DNA of 64,000 bases from the NCBI GenBank assembly GCA_963920765.1, contig OY987245.1, positions 15,640,727 through 15,704,726 on the forward strand. The letters run 5' to 3'. Every line of letters starts with the position of its first letter. The stretch's first letter is position 1. A program made the translations under genes and the position numbers. This DNA is from Ulota crispa (lineage: Eukaryota > Streptophyta > Bryopsida > Orthotrichales > Orthotrichaceae). Below are positions 3,570 to 45,001 of this stretch, in pieces. The notes beneath the pieces are model-generated. The model saw nothing but the letters and a program-made list of their open reading frames with translations. It was not told where the DNA came from and ran no database searches.

Positions 3570-3901
3570 ATAAGGTAGTGTGCTCATAAACCGTCCATCT
3601 AAGGGTTGAAACTGATTTTTGGGGAAGTGAAACTTCTTGAACTATTTTTCAGTAAATTTTTCTTTAAAGACAAGAAGAATTGTCATCTAACCCAAGTTCT
3701 TTCATATTTTTTGGAGATTTGTGGAATTAGTTATGAAATTATGAAGTGGAAAGGCCATAGGTCTCTAAAATTGCACACCCCTCAAGTATACATCACATGT
3801 ACATTGTTGGAAGGATATGAAAAATAACATGTTCCAAAAGAGTACATTTGGTGAGGTGAGCAGTTTTAGAGACTGCGTGGTTTATGAGTAGACTACCTTA
3901 G
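3570..3901. mobile_element. MITE family A, copy 1
   Basis: A roughly 330-bp element with terminal repeats TAAGGTAGTGTGCTCATAAA and its complement ending ACTACCTTA. The interior motif CTAACCCAAGTTCTTTCATA is shared with copies at 12137, 30030 and 44671. It lies inside the split family C element. The 73-codon frame inside it is also seen in other copies and is not a gene. Confidence 0.85.
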
Positions 3902-5381: not shown

Positions 5382-5796
5382 ATAAGGTAGTACGCTTGAA
5401 AACCATTTGCTCATTTCAAACCATCCAGTAGCTTGTTGTGAAATGGTGCATGGTGGTTCTTACATTAGCCTCTTACAACTCATTGAATGCATGGAAGAAA
5501 ATTTGTTTTTAATTGCAAGAGCCAATCATTCTCCTTGCTTCCTCAAATCTCTTCACAACTTGCAAGTGAACGGTTCTTGGAAGATCTAAGGTTAATAATA
5601 GGAACCTATGACACATGCACTTTAAGAATTCATAAATAACTCAAAAATGCTTCAAAAAATATGAAACAACTTGTGTTGCATTCAACATCTATTTCTCTTT
5701 GTTTGAAAAATGAACTAAAAATCCTTCCATCCACAGAAGACCATGAAAAAGAGGGATGAGCCCTTAGATGGGCGGTTTTTGAGCGTACTGCCTTAG
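5382..5796. mobile_element. MITE family B, copy 2
   Basis: The ends are ATAAGGTAGTACGCTTG and the imperfect complement GAGCGTACTGCCTTAG. The interior is closely similar to 1693-2097 (CTTGCAAGTGAACGGTT, then ATCCTTCCATCCACAGAAG). Together with 1693-2097 it defines a family of about 410 bp. Confidence 0.8.
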
Positions 5797-12136: not shown

Positions 12137-12469
12137 TTAAGGTAGAAGGCTCGAAAACCGACCATCTAAGGGCTGAAACTGAATTTTGGAGAGGTATAAC
12201 TTCTTGAAATATTTTTCAGTAAAATTTCCTTGAAAGACAAGAAGAATTGACATCTAACTCAAGTTGTTTCATATTTTTTGGAGTTTTGTAGAATTAGTTA
12301 TGAAATTTTGAAGTGGAAAGGTCATAGGGCTCTAAAATGGTGCACCTCCTCAAATGTACACATTTTGTACATTTTGGAAATCTATGAACAAATACATATA
12401 CAGAAAAAAGAACATTTTGAAGGGTGAGCGATTTTAGAGCCTGGACGGTTTTCGAGCCTTCTACCTTAT
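12137..12469. mobile_element. MITE family A, copy 2
   Basis: The cleanest copy of the family: TAAGGTAGAAGGCTCGAAAA at the left, and CGAGCCTTCTACCTTA at the right as its complement. The interior has TTCTTGAAATATTTTTCAGT. It is intact and not interrupted. Confidence 0.9.
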
Positions 12470-13311: not shown

Positions 13312-13733
13312 ATTAGGGGTAGTCACAGTTGGTCTGAGATTGTGATTTCCGTGAAGATTGAGAAATGGTTGAGTGAATGTAGGAGCCAATGGAAGCATTT
13401 CTTCATGGAAGGAGGTGTGACACCTTTTTTGTGGGTGATGGAGAATGAAGATTGAAGAATGGAGAATGTTTACTTAGAGGAAGGCAACACGGCCACTGAT
13501 TGAAGGAGCAAAAACAGCAAGGGTGAAAAGCAACTCATGAGCAAGTAAATAGTGGACCATGGTAAGAATTCTCTTGCAAATAATCTTCTCAAGCCATTTT
13601 CTCCACACTTGGAGCAGGAGAATTTTTTTCTCCATTTTCACGGAAATGGCCTTGCGCCATTTGCGGATAGCGTGGCATGTCAAATTTCCGTGAAGATTGA
13701 GAAGGGCAAAATGAACTATGACTACCCCTATTG
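13312..13733. mobile_element. MITE family D, copy 1
   Basis: The terminal repeats are TTAGGGGTAGTCACAG and the complement TATGACTACCCCTATT. The interior carries GAAGATTGAGAAATGGTTGA near 13354 and, inverted, CCGTGAAGATTGAGAAG near the right end. Frames of 64-94 codons inside it occur in repeat sequence and are not genes. The same family is split by mitochondrial DNA at 30355-34196. Confidence 0.8.
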
Positions 13734-18101: not shown

Positions 18102-18735
18102 CACTAAATAGTGCATTTAGGTTGCCCCACATTAATTTCTCGACATTCTACACGTTATTTTTATCAAAAATTTACACTTGCAATAAAACAAATTCAAGGG
18201 TTATGGCAACAACAATAAAATTGCGGAAAAATTAAGTAGCAATAGAGGTAGTCACGGTTGTTCTAAGATTGAGATTCCTGTGAAGATTGAGAAATGGTTG
18301 AGTGAATCGAAAGTAGGAGCCAATGGGAGTACTTAGATTCCATGGAAGGAGATCTGACACCCTTTTGGGTGATGGAGAATGGAGATTGAAGAATGGAGAA
18401 TGTTTTATTTAGAGAAAGGGTTAACGTCAGAAAATACATGCAAAAGCGAAGTGACCTGGGGTTAAAGTTCTCATGCAAAAATCTAAAGCACACCTATTTC
18501 TTCACGCTTGGGCACCAAGAATTTATTTTCTCAATCTTCAAAAAATTGTGCTTGTGCGGCTGTGCCAATTGCGGATTGAGAGTCACCTCAGTTTTCCACT
18601 ACTCCTAATCATGTGAAATCCTAACATTTAGAGGGTAGTATGCGCCTCCAAGTGGACAAGCAATGAATCGTGAGGTAACTTTTCATGATAAGGCAACCTA
18701 ATTGTTGAGGCAACCTAAATGCAATATTTAGTGTA
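18100..18735. mobile_element. MITE family C, copy 4, carrying a nested family D
   Basis: The left end ACACTAAATAGTGCATTTAG follows directly on copy 3, and the right end is CCTAAATGCAATATTTAGTG. The sequence at 18241-18609 belongs to family D (GAGGTAGTCACGGTTG, GTGAAGATTGAGAAATGG) and interrupts it. The 71-76 codon frames inside are repeat-borne. Confidence 0.8.
18241..18609. mobile_element. MITE family D, copy 2
   Basis: The left end AATAGAGGTAGTCACGGTTG matches family D well. The interior GGAGATTGAAGAATGGAG is shared with 13430-13470 and 30478-30500. The right end (CACTACTCCTAAT) is degenerate. Confidence 0.65.
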
Positions 18736-28095: not shown

Positions 28096-30029
28096 GAGAA
28101 AAAGTTGATATTGAGGTTGAGATTTGTTGAGATTCTCCTCCCTTGCCTTGCAAAACGGCATGCCATCTAACCTTGTCCGGTGACTGGACAAGTGTGAAGC
28201 ACACAAAAACTTTTGGACAGAAATTTGCCTAGACAATTTCCTTCAACTTTTCCTTACATGCTTGTATGATATGCGTGTTGCTCCAAAGTAACCGCACCCA
28301 TACCTGAGTGTTTAAGGGCGTTTAAGGGTTTAGGGTACTTCAGAGTCTTGGAAAATTCATGAATTTTTTTGTAGGGTTAGCCTTTCAACAAGCTATCATG
28401 GAACGTAATTTTTGTGGAAATAAGTAATGTGGATTATTTTATATTAAAGGGCTAAGTTGCAGTTCATAGGTCCCTATTAGTAGCTCTAGACTACCCTTGA
28501 AGCTGCTTTGATGTGTTCCTATACATGTGCTTGATGGTCCCAATCCCAATCATCTCACAGCAACTTAGCAATTGACATGTGGCAATATTTTCTTGTGCAA
28601 GGGACATTCATTGCTCCACTTTAGATTCACGATAGGGGGCTTCAAACTTAAACTTTTTCAAGTGACTCACGTTGCGATTCACCTCTGTGAATTCACTAGT
28701 GAATTGTGACGTGACTCACCTATGGACTTCACTCCTAATGTGATTCACGTGAGGAGTGAACTTCAAAAACTCACTTTTGTGGCTTTGCGGGGCTCATTCA
28801 CCTGCTTCCTCAAACCCCAAAACTTCTTTTGCAGAAATTTCTGCAAACTCACGTGTGTCTCAGACTTTGTGCGTGCGAGGGAGCGAATACAACTCACTAG
28901 TGAACGGAGATCTTGTGAGGTGAGAAGTTTGAAGGCCAGATTTTATGTTTGAAGCCCTCTAATGAGTGGTGAACACCTCAAAAGTAGGGCTCCACTTTAG
29001 GGACTGCTCATGTATGGGTGCTGTTACCTTTACCAGCGAAAACACACAAATAAACCCTGGTGTTGAAGACTTGAAGGGCCGGAGGTCGATCCTATCGATG
29101 TTCGCCGTTCGAGGCATGCCGCTTTACGGCGAGCGATATGGTATTCTGATCGAATGAGAAATGGACTCATGGCCAACTGGCCACTTCCTCCTTATCAAGA
29201 TGGGATTGGATTGGGAAACCATAATTATACTTCTTGTCGAGAAGCTGTTGTCCTGGTTCCAGGGCTGTGATAGGTCGAAACTCCAAGGCCCGTCCAAGCT
29301 TCGATTGGATTGTCTCCCACTTGGACTTCCTTTTTCAACGGTAAGCTCACAAATTCTTTTCACACCTGTTTGGGGAATTCAATTCAGGTGAGTATATGGC
29401 GCTGTTCACACTGCTATCCTGTAAGATTTTGTAAAACCCCTCATTTCATACCTTCAACAGTTTGACCGCAACTTGTTTTCATTTGTCCAAATGCTAAGAC
29501 CATCTCCACCGCACCCGCTAGCCTGCGTCCGGAGCTCCGGTCAAGTGGGGCGTGGGAGACACTCCCACTTGGTGACAGCAACTCCAAGCCAACGGCGAGT
29601 TGATGGCCAAGGCACTACAGCCTGAGCATTTTCCTTTTCTATGGCAAGGCATGAGGGAAAATGTTGGGGTTGCAGTGCCAATAAGAAGGTGCCACATATT
29701 ACAATACTTTTGATGGACTATTATCAAGTGCGCTTTTGCCAAGTGTCAAGTTCCCATTTGCAAGAGTAGTGCTGCTACAAAAATGAGAATTGAGTTTTGA
29801 TTTTGAAAAGGGCAACGATGTCGGGGGTCTGGCCAGGGTGGGCTATGAGAGCTCCCTCGCTACCCCAATGTGCCCTCCCACCCCATTGTCTACCGGGTTG
29901 CAGAGCCCGGCCTAGTGGCTGGGGTGGATATGCTCCAAGTAGCACTTGGACGGGATCATTGCAGGCATGTCTTTTGTTAAGGTGTGAGATTATGAGATGC
30001 ATGAGTTTCTTAACCTTAAACATTAGGGG
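28096..30029. other. Intergenic DNA with GC-richer segments
   Basis: The sequence at 28700-29400 and 29500-29960 is richer in GC than the background. Overlapping frames of 60-83 codons occur on both strands (for example 29161-29391 plus), and there is a donor-like AACG|GTAAGC near 29340, but no domain is recognised. These could be gene fragments or an unrecognised gene. Confidence 0.35.
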
Positions 30030-30359
30030 TAAGGTAAAAGGCTCATAAACCAACCATGTAAGGGCTGAAATTGAATTTTGGGGAGGTGATTCTTCTTGAA
30101 ATATTTTTCCATAAAATTTCCATGGAAGACAAGAGGGGTTGGCATCTAACCCAAGTTGTTTCATATTTTTTGGAGCTTTATGGAATTAGTTATGAAAATT
30201 TGAAATTGAAGTGGCATAGGGCTCTAAAACCGCCCACCTCCTTAAATGTACACTACTTGTACATTGTTGAAGTCTATGAAACATAACATGTACAATTGGA
30301 ATAGATTTGAGTAGGTGGGCGGTTTTTGAGCCTAGATAGTTTATGAGCCTCCTACATTA
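30030..30359. mobile_element. MITE family A, copy 3
   Basis: TAAGGTAAAAGGCTCATAAA at the left and TATGAGCCTCCTACATTAG at the right. The interior CTAACCCAAGTTGTTTCATA is as in the other copies. It directly abuts the family D element that carries the mitochondrial insertion. Confidence 0.85.
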
Positions 30360-30759
30360 GTCACACATTTTCTAAAATTCAAACTTTTGCAAAGATTGAG
30401 AATTAGTTGAGTGAAAATAGGAGCCAGGGGGAGCACTTTTCCATGAAGAAGATGTGACACCCACAATGGGTGGTGAAGAATGGAGAAATGGAGAATGGTG
30501 AAAGTAGGAAGAGCAGTTGCTATCCCATTTGTCAAATAATAATATCAAAGCCCCAAAGAAAAGAAGAGCACCCCAGAAAACTACGAGCAAAAAAAATATA
30601 TAGATTTTGTTGCGCCTTTTCTGCACTAGGCGCAACAAAACGTAGAGTCAATCAGGTATGCTTTGCGCCTGGAAAATGGAAAGTAAAAAACAATCTATAT
30701 TTTTGTTTTCAAACTAAACTTTGCGTCTTTTCATCTTCTTGGCCTATTTGTGTTATTGA

Positions 30760-31306
30760 AGACAGAGCAAAGCAAGCTTTAATCAAAATGGCCTTAGAAA
30801 CTGAATGGGAAGCCCGCTTCAAACCCAATTCTTATGGATTCAGACCCGGACGAAGCTGCCAAAATGCCATCAAAGCCATATTCAACGCTATTCAAGCCAA
30901 GCCCAAGTATGTTTTGAACGCGGACATTTCCAAATGTTTCGATCGCATCGACCACCAAGCCCTATTGGACAAACTGAAAACTTTGCCTAATTTAGCCAAA
31001 CAGGTCAAAGCCTGGCTTAAAGTCAACCTCATGACCGGATTAAGAAATAATGCTCAGTACATGGAAAAGGGCACCTATTGCGTGATGTTCCCACTGCTAG
31101 TCAACATTGCTCTCCATGGGATGGAGACAGCTTTAACAGAGTGGTCACTGAGAGCATATCCCAAAGAACCAACTTTGATACTGATTAGATATGCCAACGA
31201 CTTCATTGTACTTCACCAATCCAAAGAGATCATAGAACAGGCTCAGGTCTTCCTAAGGGAATGGTTAAAGTGCATGGGACTAGAATTGCACTCAGAGAAA
31301 ATCTAG
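30760..31306 (+). pseudogene. Decayed group II intron reverse transcriptase/maturase
   Basis: The frame continues in from MITE-derived sequence, but the reverse transcriptase similarity starts near EDRAKQALIKMALETEWEA and continues through NSYGFRPGRSCQNAI and LNADISKCFDRIDH, the hallmark blocks of organellar group II intron-encoded proteins. Two defects are visible. The conserved GTPQGG...SPLL block is collapsed to GTYCVMFPLL, and the catalytic YADD is YAND (RYANDFIVLH). The frame stops after MGLELHSEKI, before the maturase (X) and endonuclease domains. It is therefore a non-functional fragment. Whether it decayed in the mitochondrion or after transfer cannot be told. Confidence 0.85.
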
Positions 31307-31314
31307 GTAGTCAA

Positions 31315-31398
31315 CACTGGATCCGGGATTCGAACCCTCGGTATTCTCAATACTTCGGTTTTCAAGACCGATTCTTTCAACCGCTCAGACATCCATCC
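31315..31398 (-). tRNA. trnS: Mitochondrial-type tRNA-Ser(UGA) in the NUMT
   Basis: On the minus strand the sequence begins GGATGGATGTCTGAGCGGTT, has an anticodon loop CTTGAAA (anticodon TGA), a long variable arm as in serine tRNAs, and a T arm GGGTTCGAATCCC. The 3' half of the acceptor stem (TCCAGTG) pairs poorly with GGATGGA, so the 3' end is altered and the copy is probably not functional in the nucleus. Confidence 0.85.
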
Positions 31399-31510
31399 TT
31401 ATCTTAATAAGATCATCGGCTCAAAAGAACCAATAATCAACCTAATATTAATTTGCTATGTAAATGGAGATTGAAAAAAAAAAGCGAGAAGAAATAAATA
31501 AAAAATTTAG

Positions 31511-31580
31511 GCGGATATAGATTAAAGGTAAATTATCTGCCTTCCAAGCAAGAGATATGGGTTTGATTCTTGTTATCCGC
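31511..31580 (+). tRNA. trnG: Mitochondrial-type tRNA-Gly(UCC) in the NUMT
   Basis: 70 bases with a perfect 7-bp acceptor stem (GCGGATA / TATCCGC), an anticodon loop CTTCCAA giving TCC, and a T loop TTTGATT. The T stem is AT/GT-rich, as in many organelle tRNAs. It ends 29 bases before the rps4 start. Confidence 0.8.
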
Positions 31581-31609
31581 AATGGCTAAAAAAACAAATG
31601 AAACTTCAT

Positions 31610-32197
31610 ATGCCTGCATCAAGATTTAAAACTTGTCGTCAAATTTCGGAAAATGTTTGGCCGACCAAAAAACTTACTCAAAAACAAAAAGCCATTATTT
31701 TGAAGCTTCAAAAAAAAACAAATAAAAAACAATCTGACTTTTCCAAAGAATTACAAACTATACAAAAGTTGTCCCTTTTTTATGGAAAATTACCCACTAA
31801 AAAGATGCGAAGGTCTAAAACGCAGACTTATCTAGATAAAAAAAACAGTTTGTTATTTGATATAGAATGAAGATTAGATGTTATTCTGGTTCGTCTTAAT
31901 TTCTATTTAACCATTTGTCAAGCAAGGCAGCTAATAAGTCATAAAAAAATTTGTGTCAATTATAAAATGGTCAATATTCCTGGTTTTCAATTATCCAAGG
32001 GTGATCTTATATCTATCCAAGATAATTTTCTATATTTCATTAGATAAAAAATAAGACAAAATTTTCAGAGTAATCGAATATGGAGAATAAAACCTACTCA
32101 TTTGGAGGTTAATTATAAAACATTAAAAGCCGTGGTATTATATGAACCTCAACAAATACAATTCCCTTATAGCATAGATCTAGACCTTCTTGATTAA
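31610..32197 (+). pseudogene. rps4: Mitochondrial ribosomal protein S4, two in-frame stops
   Basis: 196 codons in one unbroken reading register. It begins MPASRFKTCRQISENVW and ends YSIDLDLLD, strongly like bryophyte-type mitochondrial rps4 (recognised from memory). The S4 RNA-binding domain lies in the second half (RLDVILVRLNFYLTICQARQ). TGA at 31868-31870 stands where the family has Arg before LDVILVRL, and TAA at 32045-32047 follows YFIR. There are no frameshifts. Both stops could be read as CGA and CAA if the donor mitochondrion uses U-to-C RNA editing; otherwise they are decay after transfer. In the nucleus it should be inactive. Confidence 0.85.
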
Positions 32198-32930
32198 AGC
32201 AGGAATGTATGTAAATTATTTATTGGCAGAGCGATAACAGAGTTAATCTCTCGTAGATGGTGAAAATATTCCGAGAATCTTTTGATTTTTTTGAACCATT
32301 TTTGGCTCTTTGCTATAGACATAAAGACAATACTACAATTGCGCAAAAAAAGAAAGTAAAGCTCGTATGCCCGGGCAGACGGAGCATTTGTTTTATGCTC
32401 TATGAGCTTTTTTCTTGGCCTCGTATTATCTTTCTGTGTCTTCGAGGCTAAAGACGGAAAAATAAGCGGGGAATTAAGTCCGCTTTGTAGTGAGGAGTGA
32501 AAAATACTTTTTTTTGCTGCGCCCTGGCTAGTTTTGTAACAGTTATAAGCGAGCTTAGTCTCATATCATATCGAATTGGCGAAGACTATGGCATAGTGGG
32601 CGTCGCAGCTCCATTTCGGCGAAGCGCTTATTTGTTGCTCGATGGCGTCGTCACGGTTGCTTTGCTCTGCTTGGCCGGATCCAAATCGACCATAAAGCAT
32701 CTAGGGTGGGGTGGGGGAGGGCAGCGCGAACAAAAGCTATTGGGCTTCTGCGCGTCCTCTTCCCGCATCGGCAAGGAAAAAAGAAAGGTAGCCAAGACGG
32801 AATGAATAAATGGTTAAAGCTTCATGCATAGCAGCAGGCAAAATTAGGCCAAAGATCAAAAAAAATCTATCTAGATTTTTGTTTTTTGTTGCGCTCCGCG
32901 GCCTGGCCCCTGGCCATGGCCCAATTTTGG
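32198..32930. other. Mitochondrial spacer within the NUMT
   Basis: Non-coding mitochondrial-type sequence between rps4 and tatC. A 102-codon frame at 32497-32805 is spacer-like, with GC-rich stretches (GGGTGGGGTGGGGGAGGGCA) unlike the nuclear background. No tRNA or known protein was recognised in it. Confidence 0.5.
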
Positions 32931-33662
32931 TTAAAGGACTCGTTGCTTCTTATAAACTTGTATAATCAATGCGTAAAAAATGGTCAACTCTATTATACAA
33001 TAAATAAGTAAACAAGCGACAATTTGACACCAGATATCTGGAGGTGTTAAAAAAGCTGCTGTAAAAATTGAAAGAACCATAAAAAAACGACGATTTTTAC
33101 AGCAGCTTTTCACAAAAATTCCTTTTGATTCTAGCAAAAAAATCACAAGTACCTGTACTTGAGAGCATATTGATGAAATAAACAAAATACGAACAGTTAA
33201 TAAAATATAGTCAAAAATCTTAGGTTGTAACTTTATTATAAGCAAATTAGTTGATGTTTTATTTAATTCATATAAAAAGTGCCAAACACTGGGAACTATT
33301 CCAACAAAAGTGGCAAAAAAAAACAAGAAGAAGTAAAAACCACTTAAGTAAAAGAATTTGTTGTATTTTTTTCTTTGTTCTTTATAACAACTAGGAATCA
33401 AAAAACACCAGATTTGATAACTTAGAAAAGAAAAGAAAAAATAAAAGCATGATATTAAAGAAATAGTAACATACGTGCTTAAGGCCTCCGTTAATTGTGT
33501 ACAAATAAAACCCGAATAGGAGAGAAGGAAGGATTTCGCTGACAAAAAAAACAAATCTTCTGAAAACCAATAACACGTAAACCATGTTAAACTGAAGCAA
33601 ATAAATATCCAAAAAAAACGAATTCTAGCTTCTTTCAGAATAGTTTTAAATAAAAAATTCGT
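32931..33662 (-). pseudogene. tatC: Mitochondrial TatC/MttB-like translocase, frame intact, ACG start
   Basis: A twin-arginine translocase subunit (also called mttB/orfX in plant mitochondria), an inner-membrane protein with several hydrophobic helices. The frame is open for 243 codons to a stop at 32931-32933. The N-terminus [20 protein letters not shown] starts at ACG (33660-33662), not ATG; upstream in frame there is a TGA and no ATG. Conserved features include [20 protein letters not shown], the helix around [14 protein letters not shown], and ITTPPD-like [15 protein letters not shown] near the C-terminus. The length matches bryophyte-type tatC (from memory). An ACG start is typical of organelle genes that are C-to-U edited to AUG. 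As a nuclear insert it is unlikely to be expressed. Confidence 0.85.
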
Positions 33663-34196
33663 GATATTTCATTGTGTGTTAAACCTAATAAGGGCGAAAA
33701 AAACGTTGGGTTGGCTTTTACTGCGCCCGGCAAAGTGCGCAATCAATCGTAAGGCCCTACCAAGATTTTATTTTCATCTCATTAGTAGTTAAGGGTTCGC
33801 CTCTAGAATTTTACTACATTTAAGGGTACTCATTCATCATAATGCAATTACTATGTACTAAAGCCGTATTACAGCTGAGCACTTTTTTTCTATTTCATTA
33901 AGTAAAAGGCATGGCATAGAGCGCATATAGCCACGGGAATCTATGGCGAAATCATACAGAAAAGCAAAGAATTATAAACAAAGAAGCAACAATAAATCAG
34001 AACTAGTGAGGTGAAAAAAAGACGACATGCAATAAAAAATTTGCACCCTAAACTTCTCCAGTCCATCTCTACCCGCATATAAGAAAAAAACTTCTCCAAA
34101 GATGGAAAACGGAGCTTTGTCAAATTTTGTTGGCATGCCATGACAACATTCTACAAAGATTGGGAATGAGTTCAAGAAGGTGTGACTACCCCTATT

Positions 34197-35850
34197 GTTG
34201 AGGTCATTTTGTGGCTTTTGGATAACTGAACATTGTTTTTCATTTGAGATTTTGTAGTTTTGTTAGAAATATTTCAAATGTCTCATTTTTATATTAGGTT
34301 GAATCCAAATCTAACTTTAAACTCTTACTAATAGTAAAACTATGTTTATGAAGTTTGGCATCTCATAGGCTTTTAGCCAAAAATTCATGTTTTTTTGTAG
34401 CCTTTTGAAGCAAATTCATATCTTTCTCAAGTTTTTGTAATTAATAAAAATACCAATTATTTTATTTTTCTTTCTATTGAATCTTTTTTAAATTAAAATT
34501 TTCTTTTTACTTCTTCAATTGTAGTTCAAGCACCTCAAACTTTTGATCCATCTTTTGTTTCATTGATTGCAATTTTTGGAGCTAATTTAGAATTTGATTT
34601 ATCAATTCAAATTTTGTCAAAGCAATTTTTCATAGTTATGCACAAATTATGCAATACTATGCATGTAGATAGAAGATCAAAAACCATTTGTAACATAACA
34701 TTTGCCCATTTCATCATGGTTTTTGATCTTCCTTTTGATATGCCAAATGCTCTTTTAACATACATTTTTCTAGTACAATAAATGAAATTCTAATTACGAC
34801 AATATTCAAACAATTCATCTTTTTGCTCTTTATATAGACTATACATCTATGACCTTACTAGATAAGTTGCATCACCTATTGATTTACAAGGCATAAGTTT
34901 TCCCCCTATAATGGCCTTGCTTACCTTTTGTAGCTTGAAAAACAAACCTAATTGTAAAACCTACCAGCTCACCCAAACTCAAAATCCCAAAATTTGTAAC
35001 TTACACAAAACTTACATTGATAATTCCTTGTAAAATTGTTGAATGAAATGATTTATAATAATAAAAATTCTCTCTTCTAATTATAGGAGTTAAAAAAAGG
35101 ATATGGGATCTATTAATTGCTCCTAAAAATATAAGGAATTTCATGCAAAGCTTAAAATTTAGTGGTTATAACCCTAAATTGTGATTTACTAAGAAATTGT
35201 ACTATAGTATAATTGTTTGTAAATTTTTTCTAACCACCTTACAAAATTCCCTTACAATACTTGAATTTGCACACTTAGCAATTCCAAATTCTTATTCCTA
35301 AAAATAACAATCCCTTCAAATATCCAATCTACATTCTACACAAAGAGACAATTAACCCTCATACTAGTATCATTTTTTTCAAGAAAAGACTCAATTTTCC
35401 ATAAATAGATCTAAATGTAACAAACTTATTCTAAGTTCTTTGCTTGAACATCTTTTTTGTAAATGAACCCAACAAAAGACAATCCATAAATCCAACCATA
35501 CGTACATGGCTCCAAATGTGGGGATGCCCTTGTCTCAAGCTTTCACACCAAATGCTAAAAAGAGTAAGTTTCTCCCACTCTTCTTGCAAGATCAAGGATC
35601 ATATATTCACAATGAGTTGTACTATGAAATACAACCTCATATACGGCCATTATGCCACTACAAGCAAACGCTTTCAATTTGTTCAGTTTTTGTAGATTCG
35701 GACATGTTAGTTTAGACGTTTTTTTTTTTTTAATCAATTTTGACATTTTTTTGTCACAGGTCTAGTCAGTTCAAATGTGTCAATTTGGACACTATTTTCT
35801 TGTAATATGCCAATACAAGATTCTTCCTTCTTTCTTCCATTGCAACCCTA
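34197..35850. other. AT-rich intergenic DNA
   Basis: No gene is seen. The stretch 35690-35815 (CAATTTGGACAC, TTTTTGTCAC) resembles sequence inside family N at 44150-44290, so an old relative of that element is likely. Frames of 60-83 codons lack recognisable domains. Confidence 0.4.
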
Positions 35851-38901: not shown

Positions 38902-41900
38902 CTAAGAATCTTGCATTTGTATAATAAGACTGGTGCGGGAGTGAAGCCCTGCATCTTTCAAAGTCAAACCCAACTTCTCAGGACCATACTCCACACGAGG
39001 AAAATTTGAAACGAGAAGGAAACTATCGGATCCCACACCGTCTAACGATCTTACATAATCATACACTCCCTGCACCAGAGTTGTATTATGGAACCTCCGT
39101 TCTCTACGTTCTCCTGATGGCATTCGTACCGCCACCTGCAAAAAATCAGTCACATTCATTCAATGCGTCGTTAGTGATACCAAAAAAATGCATAGACAAG
39201 AAAAAATGAGGTCATGAACTTCAGCACACTATAATGAAAATCTTCCTATGGTCACAATGATTATATGGAGGCCTTCCCTATGTATCATGAAAGGGACCTC
39301 AATATGATCATTGTGACGTAACGCTAAGTCTGGTGTTAAAGGGAACTATGCCATTGTCTCTTTGGCTAGCCAAAAAGGATCATATGTCACAATCCTTATT
39401 CTCATTCTAAACCCTTTGGATAACCAGAAGGTATAGATCTAAACGCTCTCTATGACGTAGGAAGACTTGGCAACATGTCTAAGGTAGGAGCACCCAATAC
39501 CAACCGTGTACGTAATAGCGTCACTCTCTACACAAGGTGGTCACTTAAGAACTTAGATCTAGGTAAGTCATAGACAGCTTATTGTTGTTGACCAAAATCA
39601 TAAGCTATCTATGACTTATAAACACCTTGTGTAGAGAGTGACGCTATTAGGTACACTGTTGGTATTGGGTGCTCCTACCTTAATACTAGCTCTAAGCATT
39701 CTCTAGTCCATAGGAAGACATGTTCATGACGTATTATCTACGATTTTGTCTAAACGTTCCTGAAACATTCTAATTTTACCAAAGCTTTTGTTAAAAGAAT
39801 GCAAAAATAGAATCATTCGTCTTGGACAGTGCCACGAACGGCAAACAAATGCAGTGACCTATGCATCAAACTGCTCATCATGCTGCATGCTGGATAGTTG
39901 CAAAGCTGTGAAATATGAAGGTAGAAACATACATGAGTGACATCTGGTCCTTTCTCTGGCTCAGGACCAAGACTCAAAGCTTTGTCATGTCGAAGTCGCA
40001 CTAAGTTGGCATGTTTCTGTGCTGAGATTTGAGCGGCTTGAGCAGCTTCTTCCTCGTCTTGCATTTTCTTCTGATCGGCATCGAGTCTCTCCCTCGTAGC
40101 TTGGTCCGCCAAGGCTTGTTCTCTTCGGTCTCTCTCCTGGTCAGCCAAAAGTGCGACTCTGTACGCCTCGTCTTGCTCTTCACGCAAGCGGCAGTTCAAA
40201 TCCCGTGCTTCTTGCTCCCGTCGTCCGGCAATCAATGAGGCACTCTGGTCTTCAATGACGTTCTGCAATATTGCCAATAACTCTCCCGCCGTCTTGTATT
40301 CTTCAACCTGTTGCCCCACATAAATCAAAGAGGTTAAAAGGCTGTCCAGATCAACGCGAAAAAACGCGAGTGTCTCCACCCCCAGTACAAACACAAAATC
40401 TGTCCACACAATCTTCAGTATGTAAAATCACCATTCATCAAGAATAAAACACTCAAATCAACAACCGCAGAAAGCCATTGTTCCAGAAACCGCATGACAT
40501 ATCCAATTAAACATAACAAAATTCATTCTTTCAAATGATGGGCCCTAGCATGCTACTCAAGTTGAGTTCATGCACAATGCACAAATTGTTTTGTACTTCA
40601 TTTTTTTATATTAATATTTTATTTTATTTTAAGACTAGTAGTAAAGGAAAGAAGCATCTTTTTTACCATCAAGTTGTTGAGATTTTAAATAACATAATAT
40701 TTCTAGGAACAAAATGCATATAAAATGATCAGTATGTCCAGCATAGTAGTGTGTCTAGGACTAATTGTTTTGGGTCGTAGCCTTCAACGTGTCTCATTTC
40801 ATTGAGCATTCGAACTTTCATTGTAGTCAAACCATTGCTTTAGGGGGTAGAGATTATAAAAGTACGATACAGTGTTATACAATCACTAAATTGGACCTAA
40901 TAGCCGCCAACCATGAACACTCTCACAGCTTAGTAATTATTAACTCTGACGGGCCCAATGGTCAAAAGCGACCGCTACAATATGCATAGGAGTTGAAATG
41001 AATCAATTAGCGGCTTCAAAGACGTAACGAAACACACGAAAAGAATGAAGAGATCATAATACACATAATACACATTTCTTTCTTTTAATATACCAAACAA
41101 TAGCAACAAATCACTGGAAAAATTCACCATTCTTCTGAAAGTTCCCAAATGGAATTTCTGTTTTTAAATTAGGCACTTAGTCAGAGGTAGAGTAATAAAT
41201 TTAGAAATGAAATACTTCAGCCGTGATGCAGAACCCAATCATACCTGGTGAACAACGGCAATGCGCTGGCTGGAAGAGCCGGCAATGATGGCACAGAACG
41301 GGAACGTGGAAGCGTTCAGGCTGTTACTCATTTGATAACCCTCCGACTTGTGAACGTCGGCACCCCATGCAACGAAATTCTCATTGATGAAGTCCACCAC
41401 CACGTCATTGCGCAGGGTGGTCTCACAAAACGCTGACGTGTTCACATGCTGGGCAGCGTGTAAGTACACAAACAGGAACTTGAACTCCTCACCAGCTTTG
41501 CGCAAAGCCTCCATGAAGCTCACCGGTTGAAACTCCGGATGGTACTCCCCATAGCGCCTCTCATACGTCCTAAGAAAATTGGATGCCTCCGACGCTCCTG
41601 ATGGCATCAACCCATGCGGAGAGGCGTTCGGCTGAGTGCCACCAGCTTCCACAGCCAAGCCTGGATTGGGAGCCCCAGTCAACCGCAAAGCACCTGATCA
41701 CAACAAAACATCATAAACCCCTCAGTACCAAAAGTTTCAAGGTTGAGGCTTGCATTTTTGTACCCTGAGCATGGCTCGGTGCATCAAAACAAAAGCAAAT
41801 GCACCAAGGGGAATAGAGACAGAGTATCTTTAGAAATAAGGGAGAATTTCATCGATACCCTGAAGTTTGCAATATTTTCATATATATCCCTGCTTTAATA

Positions 41901-43130
41901 TCACAAATACCCTTGGACCAAAAAATTTAGGCGTTTGTTTTGTTATGCATGCCACTTTCTTCTCCCTTTGTGCGCACACTACTTCTTTCTTGTTATGCAT
42001 GCGCACAAAGGAAGAAGGGAAGTGGCATGCAAAACAAAACAAACGCCTAGAAATTATGGTCCAAGGGTATTTGTGATATTTCTGAAAAAGCATGGGTATG
42101 TATGAAAATATTGCAGACTTCAGGGGTATCCATGAAATTTTCCCTAAAAATAATAGGAACCACTATTCGATCAGACTTGCATTTAAGTGGATTTACATTA
42201 AATGTGTAAGGATTGTTTACTAGTTATCTCTTCTCGTTGCTCTTGTTCTTATTTGCTTTTGCAGTGGCACTCTTCTTTTACATGTCTGTGGTTTCGTTTA
42301 CTTGTTGCAAGTCCTCAAGATGCTAACTAATACGAATAAGACTGAATACGAATCTTGTTCACACATGACTCGAAAGATATAGAACCACTCATCACATTAA
42401 CATTAGTATCCTACGAGCTTATATTTTATCAAAATCAACATGTTTCTTGTATTTTTGATCAAGTAGAAGCTTCTGTAATTTTTACTACAAAGCAGGAAAA
42501 CCAACATCGAAAAATCAGGAAAAGAAAGAAGAGGAAAAAAGTTATGAATACATTACCTAAACCTGCGCTCAAAACACCTCCGGCAATCCAAAAACCTAAT
42601 CCCATAGCACCATAAAGAAGGTTATAGCTCCCCCATAAGATAAGAACTGGAAGCGTCACGACGCGCCAAGCAAACGTTGTCCCGTCAGAGCCACCACCGT
42701 CCACCACTGCAGCAGCAGCAACAGAAGAAGAAGACGAAGAAGCAGAAGAAGAAGAAGAAGGAGCCGGGCCATCGCTGATACGCTCAAACAACGATCTGTC
42801 ATCAACAACGTTCGCCTCAGCAACAGGAGTGGCGATCCGAGCCACAGGAGCTGCCAATGAAGAATCACTGCCGGCCTCCCGCAAATCCGCAGCATCAGTT
42901 ACTTGCACAACACCATCTGGTTGTTGCGCCATTGCACTCCCACCACGCACGCTCTCCTCGTACTCCGGAATGGCGTTCGTGTTCGTGTCCACCATGGCTT
43001 GGATTGCGGAGTCCAGGTCCCAGTCATACGCATCCAAAATCTGGTGCGAGAGCGACGCGTCTTGCACTCCCGTGATTTCTTGAAAATAGGCTAACTTCTG
43101 ACGGTCCATGTCGTTGTTGTTGTCCGCCAT
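38902..43130 (-). CDS. UBA-UAS-UBX protein, FAF2/UBXD8 (PUX10-like)
   Basis: Four exons on the minus strand: 42557-43130, 41245-41693, 39933-40307, 38902-39135; all junctions are GT-AG and in phase, giving 543 residues. Domain order: UBA-type helix bundle at about 10-48 (LAYFQEITGVQDASLSHQIL), a Ser/Ala-rich linker, a hydrophobic hairpin at 156-192 (VVTLPVLILWG, GLGFWIAGGVL), a thioredoxin-like UAS domain at about 231-341 (FLRTYERRYG, FLFVYLHAAQHVNT), a charged coiled coil at 342-466 and a C-terminal UBX domain at 467-543 with the FPR loop (511-513). Family members insert the hairpin into ER or lipid-droplet membranes and recruit p97/CDC48 through UBX, for ER-associated degradation and lipid-droplet turnover. 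The start is the only ATG before the UBA domain. Introns 1 and 3 each contain a palindromic MITE. A diverged, truncated paralogue lies head-to-head at 45360-48431. Confidence 0.92.
39482..39683. mobile_element. Palindromic MITE family N, copy 1, in UBX intron 3
   Basis: TAAGGTAGGAGCACCCAATA at the left and TATTGGGTGCTCCTACCTTA at the right; nearly the whole 200 bp folds back (GTCACTCTCTACACAAGGTG against the complement near 39625). The ends share the AAGGTAG motif with families A, B and E. Confidence 0.9.
41841..42144. mobile_element. Palindromic MITE family M, in UBX intron 1
   Basis: GGAGAATTTCATCGATACCC at the left pairs with GGGTATCCATGAAATTTTCC at the right; the arms continue through AAACAAACGCCTAGAAATTA near 42035 to the centre near 41990. 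It makes up about a third of the 863-bp intron and does not touch the splice sites. Confidence 0.9.
42706..42765. repeat. Trinucleotide repeat coding for a Ser/Ala run
   Basis: On the plus strand an imperfect GCA/GAA repeat (AGCAGCAGCAACAGAAGAAG) lies within exon 1 of the minus-strand UBX gene and encodes the Ser- and Ala-rich linker before the membrane hairpin. Length variation here would keep the frame. Confidence 0.85.
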
Positions 43131-44670: not shown

Positions 44671-45001
44671 AAAGGTAGGAGGTTCTAAAACATGCAGGCT
44701 CTACAATGGTGCACCTCCTCAAATGTACTCTATTTATACATGTTGTTTTTCATAACCCTTCAACAATGTATAGGATATGTACATTTGAGGAGGTGCACCA
44801 TTTTAGAGCCCTATGGCATTTCCTATTCAAAATTTCATAACTAATTCCACAAAGCTCCAAAAAATATGAAATAACTTGGGTTAGATGCCAATTCTTCTTG
44901 CCTTTCAAGGAAAATTTACTGAAAAATATTTCAAAGAAGCTTCACCTCCCCAAAATTCAGTTTCAGCCCTTAGATGCTCGATTCATGAGCCTCTTACCTC
45001 A
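44671..45001. mobile_element. MITE family A, copy 4 (inverted)
   Basis: AAAGGTAGGAGGTTCTAAAA at the left and TTCATGAGCCTCTTACCTCA at the right; the interior is the reverse complement of the other family A copies (TATGAAATAACTTGGGTTAG). It ends about 360 bases before the first surviving exon of the truncated UBX copy. Confidence 0.85.

Follow-up and report, generated by a model that had tools for sequence, protein, structure and literature searches.

A family-D miniature inverted-repeat transposable element (MITE) of Ulota crispa is split by mitochondrial DNA (mtDNA). The split copy lies in the 64-kb window that we analysed (C4:15640727-15704726), where the nested unit, with all its layers, occupies positions 30024-34194. 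Contig C4 spans 25.7 Mb of an assembly of 274.8 Mb in 157 contigs, with C1-C10 each 15.8-41.4 Mb long. The mtDNA measures 3,433 bp (30524-33956) and comes from two separate places in the mitochondrial genome. The two halves of the D element abut at a single point of the element, and the insert carries decay of a nuclear type. From these features we infer a double-strand break as the cause and end joining as the pathway. Hence, the explanation that we hold to be highly probable is end-joining repair of a break in an old, probably immobile D MITE on C4, with a complex nuclear mitochondrial DNA segment (NUMT) as filler. The layers are listed by window position. C156 is the mitochondrial contig.

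30024..30031, plus strand: first bases of the D MITE, TA plus GGGGTA of the left terminal repeat, cut off by a second MITE; joined with 30360 onwards they give CATTAGGGGTAGTCACAC, the D terminus.
30032..30357, plus strand: second MITE, 326 bp, at a TA of the D left terminal repeat; inverted ends, with TA copies at 30030-30031 and 30358-30359.
30360..30523, plus strand: left half of D, with GTTGCTAT at its end; it stops where 25 relatives continue.
30524..31327, plus strand: mtDNA segment 1, C156:89196-89999, the inner part of a group II intron reverse transcriptase/maturase open reading frame (ORF); 98.0% identical (788/804 bp).
31325..31327, plus strand: GGG common to both mtDNA segments, a 3-bp microhomology joint defined by alignment to C156.
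31325..33956, plus strand: mtDNA segment 2, C156:65325-67959, with trnS clipped at its 3' end, trnG, rps4, and tatC on the minus strand; 98.8% identical over 2,635 alignment columns (2604/2635), with one 3-bp deletion.
31601..32197, plus strand: rps4 pseudogene with two internal stops, by translation against the open mitochondrial ORF.
33957..34194, plus strand: right half of D, running from CAGAAAAGC to CCCCTA; 77% identical over 244 bp to locus L037, and matched by D copies in the joined-flank search.

The mitochondrial reference, C156, is a contig of 104,638 bp from the same assembly. We take it as the organism's mtDNA because the stretches read carry rps4, tatC, several tRNA genes and the group II intron maturase ORF. 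Local alignment of window positions 30000-34300 to this contig gave two matches, which lie about 21 kb apart on C156. In the window they overlap by the GGG. Beyond it, the mitochondrial sequence on each side departs. The joined sequence had no second occurrence in the genome (9 of 9 candidates scored). The original prediction had spoken of one mitochondrial block and proposed mapping it to the mitochondrial genome; the mitochondrial origin stands, while the one block becomes two pieces. As a sequence homologous to the organism's own mtDNA within a 25.7-Mb contig, the insert is a NUMT. With more than one non-adjacent organelle fragment and a joint of the kind left by non-homologous end joining (NHEJ), it is a complex one.

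Segment 1 is drawn from inside a 533-aa mitochondrial ORF with RVT_N, RVT_1 and GIIM domains. The mitochondrial ORFs in segment 2 have an S4 domain (rps4) and a TatC domain (tatC). At the segment joint, ARAGORN still calls trnS, the last bases being supplied by segment 1. Unlike rps4, the tatC stretch of the insert (32934-33656) remains open for 241 codons, with one codon lost. This probably reflects youth, not function. A 278-aa open frame (30470-31306) crosses from the left D half into the mitochondrial reverse transcriptase fragment and gives an RVT_1 match. Such a fusion is probably due to chance.

Family D elements are about 0.42 kb long. A search with the window copy at 13312-13733 returned 1,127 first-look candidates, of which 40 were scored. 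The terminal inverted repeats have the ends GGGGTAGTCA...TGACTACCCC. Short length, many copies and terminal inverted repeats are the marks of a MITE, and by these family D is one. Of the 17 copies with both ends located (20 listed; counted by eye), 11 have TA beyond each end, and this TA could belong to the repeat. With 30355-30520 as query, the left D piece matched 40 other scored sequences of the genome, at 76-86% identity (best E=4e-36; 497 first-look candidates).

The split copy was compared with its relatives by removing the mitochondrial block and searching with the joined flanks. This gave 794 candidates; 40 were scored and 30 loci fetched. Apart from the window's own, 25 of 28 fetched loci align across the join. 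The other three (L056, L057 and L060) match the left half only and were left out of the break-point comparison since they do not span the join. All 25 aligned relatives hold three bases where the window copy has the insert: AAA in 14, AGA in 7 and others in 4. Immediately left of the break, 16 of the 25 read GCTAT. Hence, the D halves meet at a single point, from which 3 bp have been lost, and the right half restarts directly at 33957. Against the 25 aligned copies, the insert has neither a target-site duplication nor any filler beyond mtDNA. The left joint between D and mtDNA has no base in common and the right joint at most one (A). Searches spanning these two junctions found the joined sequence only at this locus (8 of 8 and 40 of 40 candidates scored). 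Both D ends are retained, at 30024-30031 and in the terminus at 34194, and the insert sits about 170 bp inside the left end.

These comparisons bear out two expectations of the original prediction, that D sequence flanks a mitochondrial block of about 3.4 kb and that the two pieces meet at one point of D. Its edges need correction. The left half of D, said to end near 30515, ends at 30523. Resumption of D near 34090 is too far right, because the prediction counted about 130 bp of D as mitochondrial. Nor does the D copy start at 30355, which falls at the right end of the second MITE; D begins at 30024-30031. The two window copies put forward as comparators, at 13312-13733 and 18241-18609, are nearer another version of D. 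They are 87% and 84% identical to locus L027, versus 76% and 75% to the split copy. Useful comparators for the split copy lie elsewhere in the genome.

The joints share 0 bp on the left, at most 1 bp on the right and 3 bp inside, with 3 bp of target lost. Absence of a target-site duplication, a small deletion and joints that are blunt or have 1-7 bp of microhomology would all be expected of end joining. Consistent with this, the NHEJ signatures of organelle insertions given in the available text of PMC7037861 and PMC6215612 match those at the locus. The same texts describe blunt or 1-7-bp microhomology joints as typical, with fragments linked before or during insertion. We propose that a double-strand break arose inside the D MITE on C4 when the element was already old and probably no longer mobile. 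Two mtDNA fragments became linked over the GGG, before or during repair. Nuclear-located mtDNA would have been ligated into the break as filler by end joining, at the cost of 3 bp of the MITE. Since insertion, decay has been mainly C to T at CG and CHG.

Compared with C156, the insert has 44 substitutions in 3,433 sites and one deletion, spread over both segments. From mtDNA to window, 34 of the 44 substitutions are C>T or G>A (20 and 14, respectively), and reverse transitions number 2. Counted on both strands, these changes affect 22 of 236 cytosines in CG, 10 of 181 in CHG and 2 of 848 in CHH (CG versus non-CG, Fisher p=2.5e-9). Such a bias at CG and CHG is the mark of methylated-cytosine decay, which the available text of PMC7037861 describes for plant NUMTs. 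A read chimera would not be expected to show it, and it places the ageing of the insert in methylated DNA of the nucleus. Decay of this kind, distinct from that of mtDNA, also fits a NUMT. The bias offers a mutation-based record of the methylation contexts that have acted on the locus.

A second MITE interrupts the same D copy. It splits the D terminus so that GGGGTA ends at 30031 and TAGTCA begins at 30358, with TA duplicated. The 326-bp element (30032-30357) had 4,154 first-look candidates; 40 were scored, the nearest being 88% identical. The duplicated TA is its target-site duplication. TA-target MITEs, of the Stowaway or Tc1-mariner-like type, are likewise short and of high copy number, with inverted ends and a TA duplication, and the element is a candidate member of that type. 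Within it, at 30220-30332, inverted arms of 45 nt that start GGCTCTAAAACCGCCC are 82% complementary, forming a fold-back. More copies or fragments of the family lie in the window at 1902-2097, 3571-3888, 5605-5795, 12138-12464 and 44675-44999.

The D copy is the oldest layer because it hosts both inserts; it preceded them. Against the majority sequence of 25 relatives it shows 63 differences in 413 positions, and the second MITE shows 30 in 326 against that of 11 relatives. Because the mtDNA differs at 44 of 3,433 sites, it was most likely the latest arrival. Judged by divergence, the second MITE probably preceded it. If so, the D copy could no longer have been excised normally when the mtDNA arrived. 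That the insert looks younger than its host element agrees with the suggestion in the original prediction that a NUMT landed in a transposon. The repair of a double-strand break by such a landing, as suggested there, is supported by the precise abutment, the 3-bp loss and the blunt or short-microhomology joints.

The same prediction offered a second route, in which excision of the D MITE itself left the break and its repair captured mtDNA. Breaks made by excision can indeed take up foreign DNA. Here, however, both D ends are kept. The insert lies inside the element, about 170 bp in from its left end, and D has lost 3 bp there. An apparently older MITE interrupts the left terminal repeat, so the D copy was probably immobile. 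This route is unsupported and we regard it as very improbable. A different excision scar is somewhat easier to entertain, though still unlikely: a third, now absent, TA-targeting element could have left the middle of D at TATA, and the break would then not be random. The commonest break-point sequence, GCTAT followed by AAA or AGA, holds a TA. In addition, a high-copy MITE family that duplicates TA has inserted elsewhere in the split copy. However, all 25 aligned D copies are free of an element at the break point, TA is frequent in AT-rich sequence, and nothing beyond a TA points to such an element. Were this origin true, breaks made by transposase could be read from mtDNA capture, and the MITE-rich chromosomes of the genome would hold more such events.

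That the insert is 98-99% identical to the mitochondrial contig is what a chimera of nuclear and mitochondrial reads would give. The original prediction had named such a chimera as its refutation. Yet the 44 substitutions and one deletion fall over both segments with C>T changes biased to CG and CHG, and rps4 has two stops. Moreover, the D halves abut to within 3 bp and the joint between the mtDNA segments is private to the locus. Methylation-type decay in particular contradicts a chimera, in which we place very little belief. Least probable of all is a composite element, a MITE that took mtDNA as cargo and transposed with it. The mtDNA is indeed framed by D halves ending in inverted repeats. 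However, one terminal repeat is split, and searches across each of the three junctions recovered the joined sequence at this locus and nowhere else. We rejected composite transposition for want of a second copy of any junction.

Several points weigh against break repair as we describe it. To polarise the differences, we used one other NUMT per segment: L011 for segment 2, and L017, which covers 675 of the 804 bp of segment 1. This placed 42 of the 44 differences within the comparison and 2 outside it. Of these 42, 28 are private to the insert, 1 is mixed and 13 are common to the other NUMT. Those 13 reflect either parallel decay or change in the mtDNA, and the 1.3% divergence is not all local decay. 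Divergences of the MITEs were taken to the majority of copies and include subfamily history; the case that the second MITE arrived earlier than the NUMT is weaker for it. The 3-bp loss depends on 25 relatives aligning across the break in one MAFFT alignment. Nine scored D loci, three of them fetched (L056, L057 and L060), match only to query base 193-197, 9-13 bp short of the break on its left, owing to differences among D versions in the middle. The break thus lies near a stretch where D versions diverge; this may be coincidence. Finally, the locus was read from a single assembly.

A hairpin tip was also considered as the site of the break. The idea was dropped: over shuffled sequences, the empty D copy has only a modest folding advantage (z -1.99; 4 of 100 as good).

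Organelle DNA as a filler in break repair is ordinary and well described, and the locus, a NUMT inside a MITE, is of a known kind. Like the complex NUMTs in the available text of PMC6215612 and PMC7037861, it has two mtDNA fragments end-joined at one nuclear site, here over 3 bp of microhomology. Nothing essential differs; here the terminal junctions are also resolved, the target being a repeat copy. NUMT-filled break repair in primates, as presented in part of PMC2567098, is alike in its mtDNA filler, and the target loss here is small (3 bp). It differs in that our case is from a plant-type genome and was inferred from repeat paralogues, not from an outgroup species. The maize 9L NUMT, according to the available part of PMC4632043, also has mtDNA and transposons nested in one place. 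There, retrotransposons inserted into the NUMT, whereas here the NUMT is inside the transposon. A literature search judged by titles and the openings of abstracts found no published case of mtDNA inside a MITE, and we make no claim that the arrangement is unpublished.

The locus is a clean example of three layers: a host MITE that contains both another MITE and a two-piece NUMT. Its main interest is that repeat paralogues can stand in for the empty site. In a study of organelle insertions of mosaic structure (PMC6215612, available text), terminal junctions were omitted for want of similar enough plant genomes. If an insert has landed in a copy of a repeat, the paralogues of that repeat in the same genome show the site without it, and one assembly is enough to read the terminal junctions.

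Many more NUMTs are present in the genome; among the matches listed, several are composite by adjacent coordinates. Nine other NUMT loci (L011-L014 and L016-L020; the match plus 1.5 kb on each side) had no D or second-MITE sequence at E<=1e-4. This test is weak, since in at least L011, L012 and L016 the mtDNA reaches the end of the mitochondrial sequence compared and the edge may lie beyond. We found no support in these nine loci, weak as the test is, for D MITEs as a hotspot of mtDNA insertion, and rejected the idea.

L016 (C1:40863455-40867258) is 99.9% identical to the mitochondrial contig over the 2,401 bp compared. Hence, mtDNA transfer in this genome has been recent. At C6:16525614-16550965, eight short matches to scattered mitochondrial positions, among those listed, extend over about 25 kb; this looks like a large rearranged NUMT. 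A 9-kb NUMT at C5:25317038-25326195, also among the matches listed, has three mitochondrial blocks in order; two intervening stretches are absent. Elsewhere in the window, an ORF on the minus strand (42459-43130) has a UBA-like domain (UBA_4) and is probably part of an ordinary nuclear gene. On the same strand, the ORF at 39813-40409, which had no Pfam match, may be another exon.

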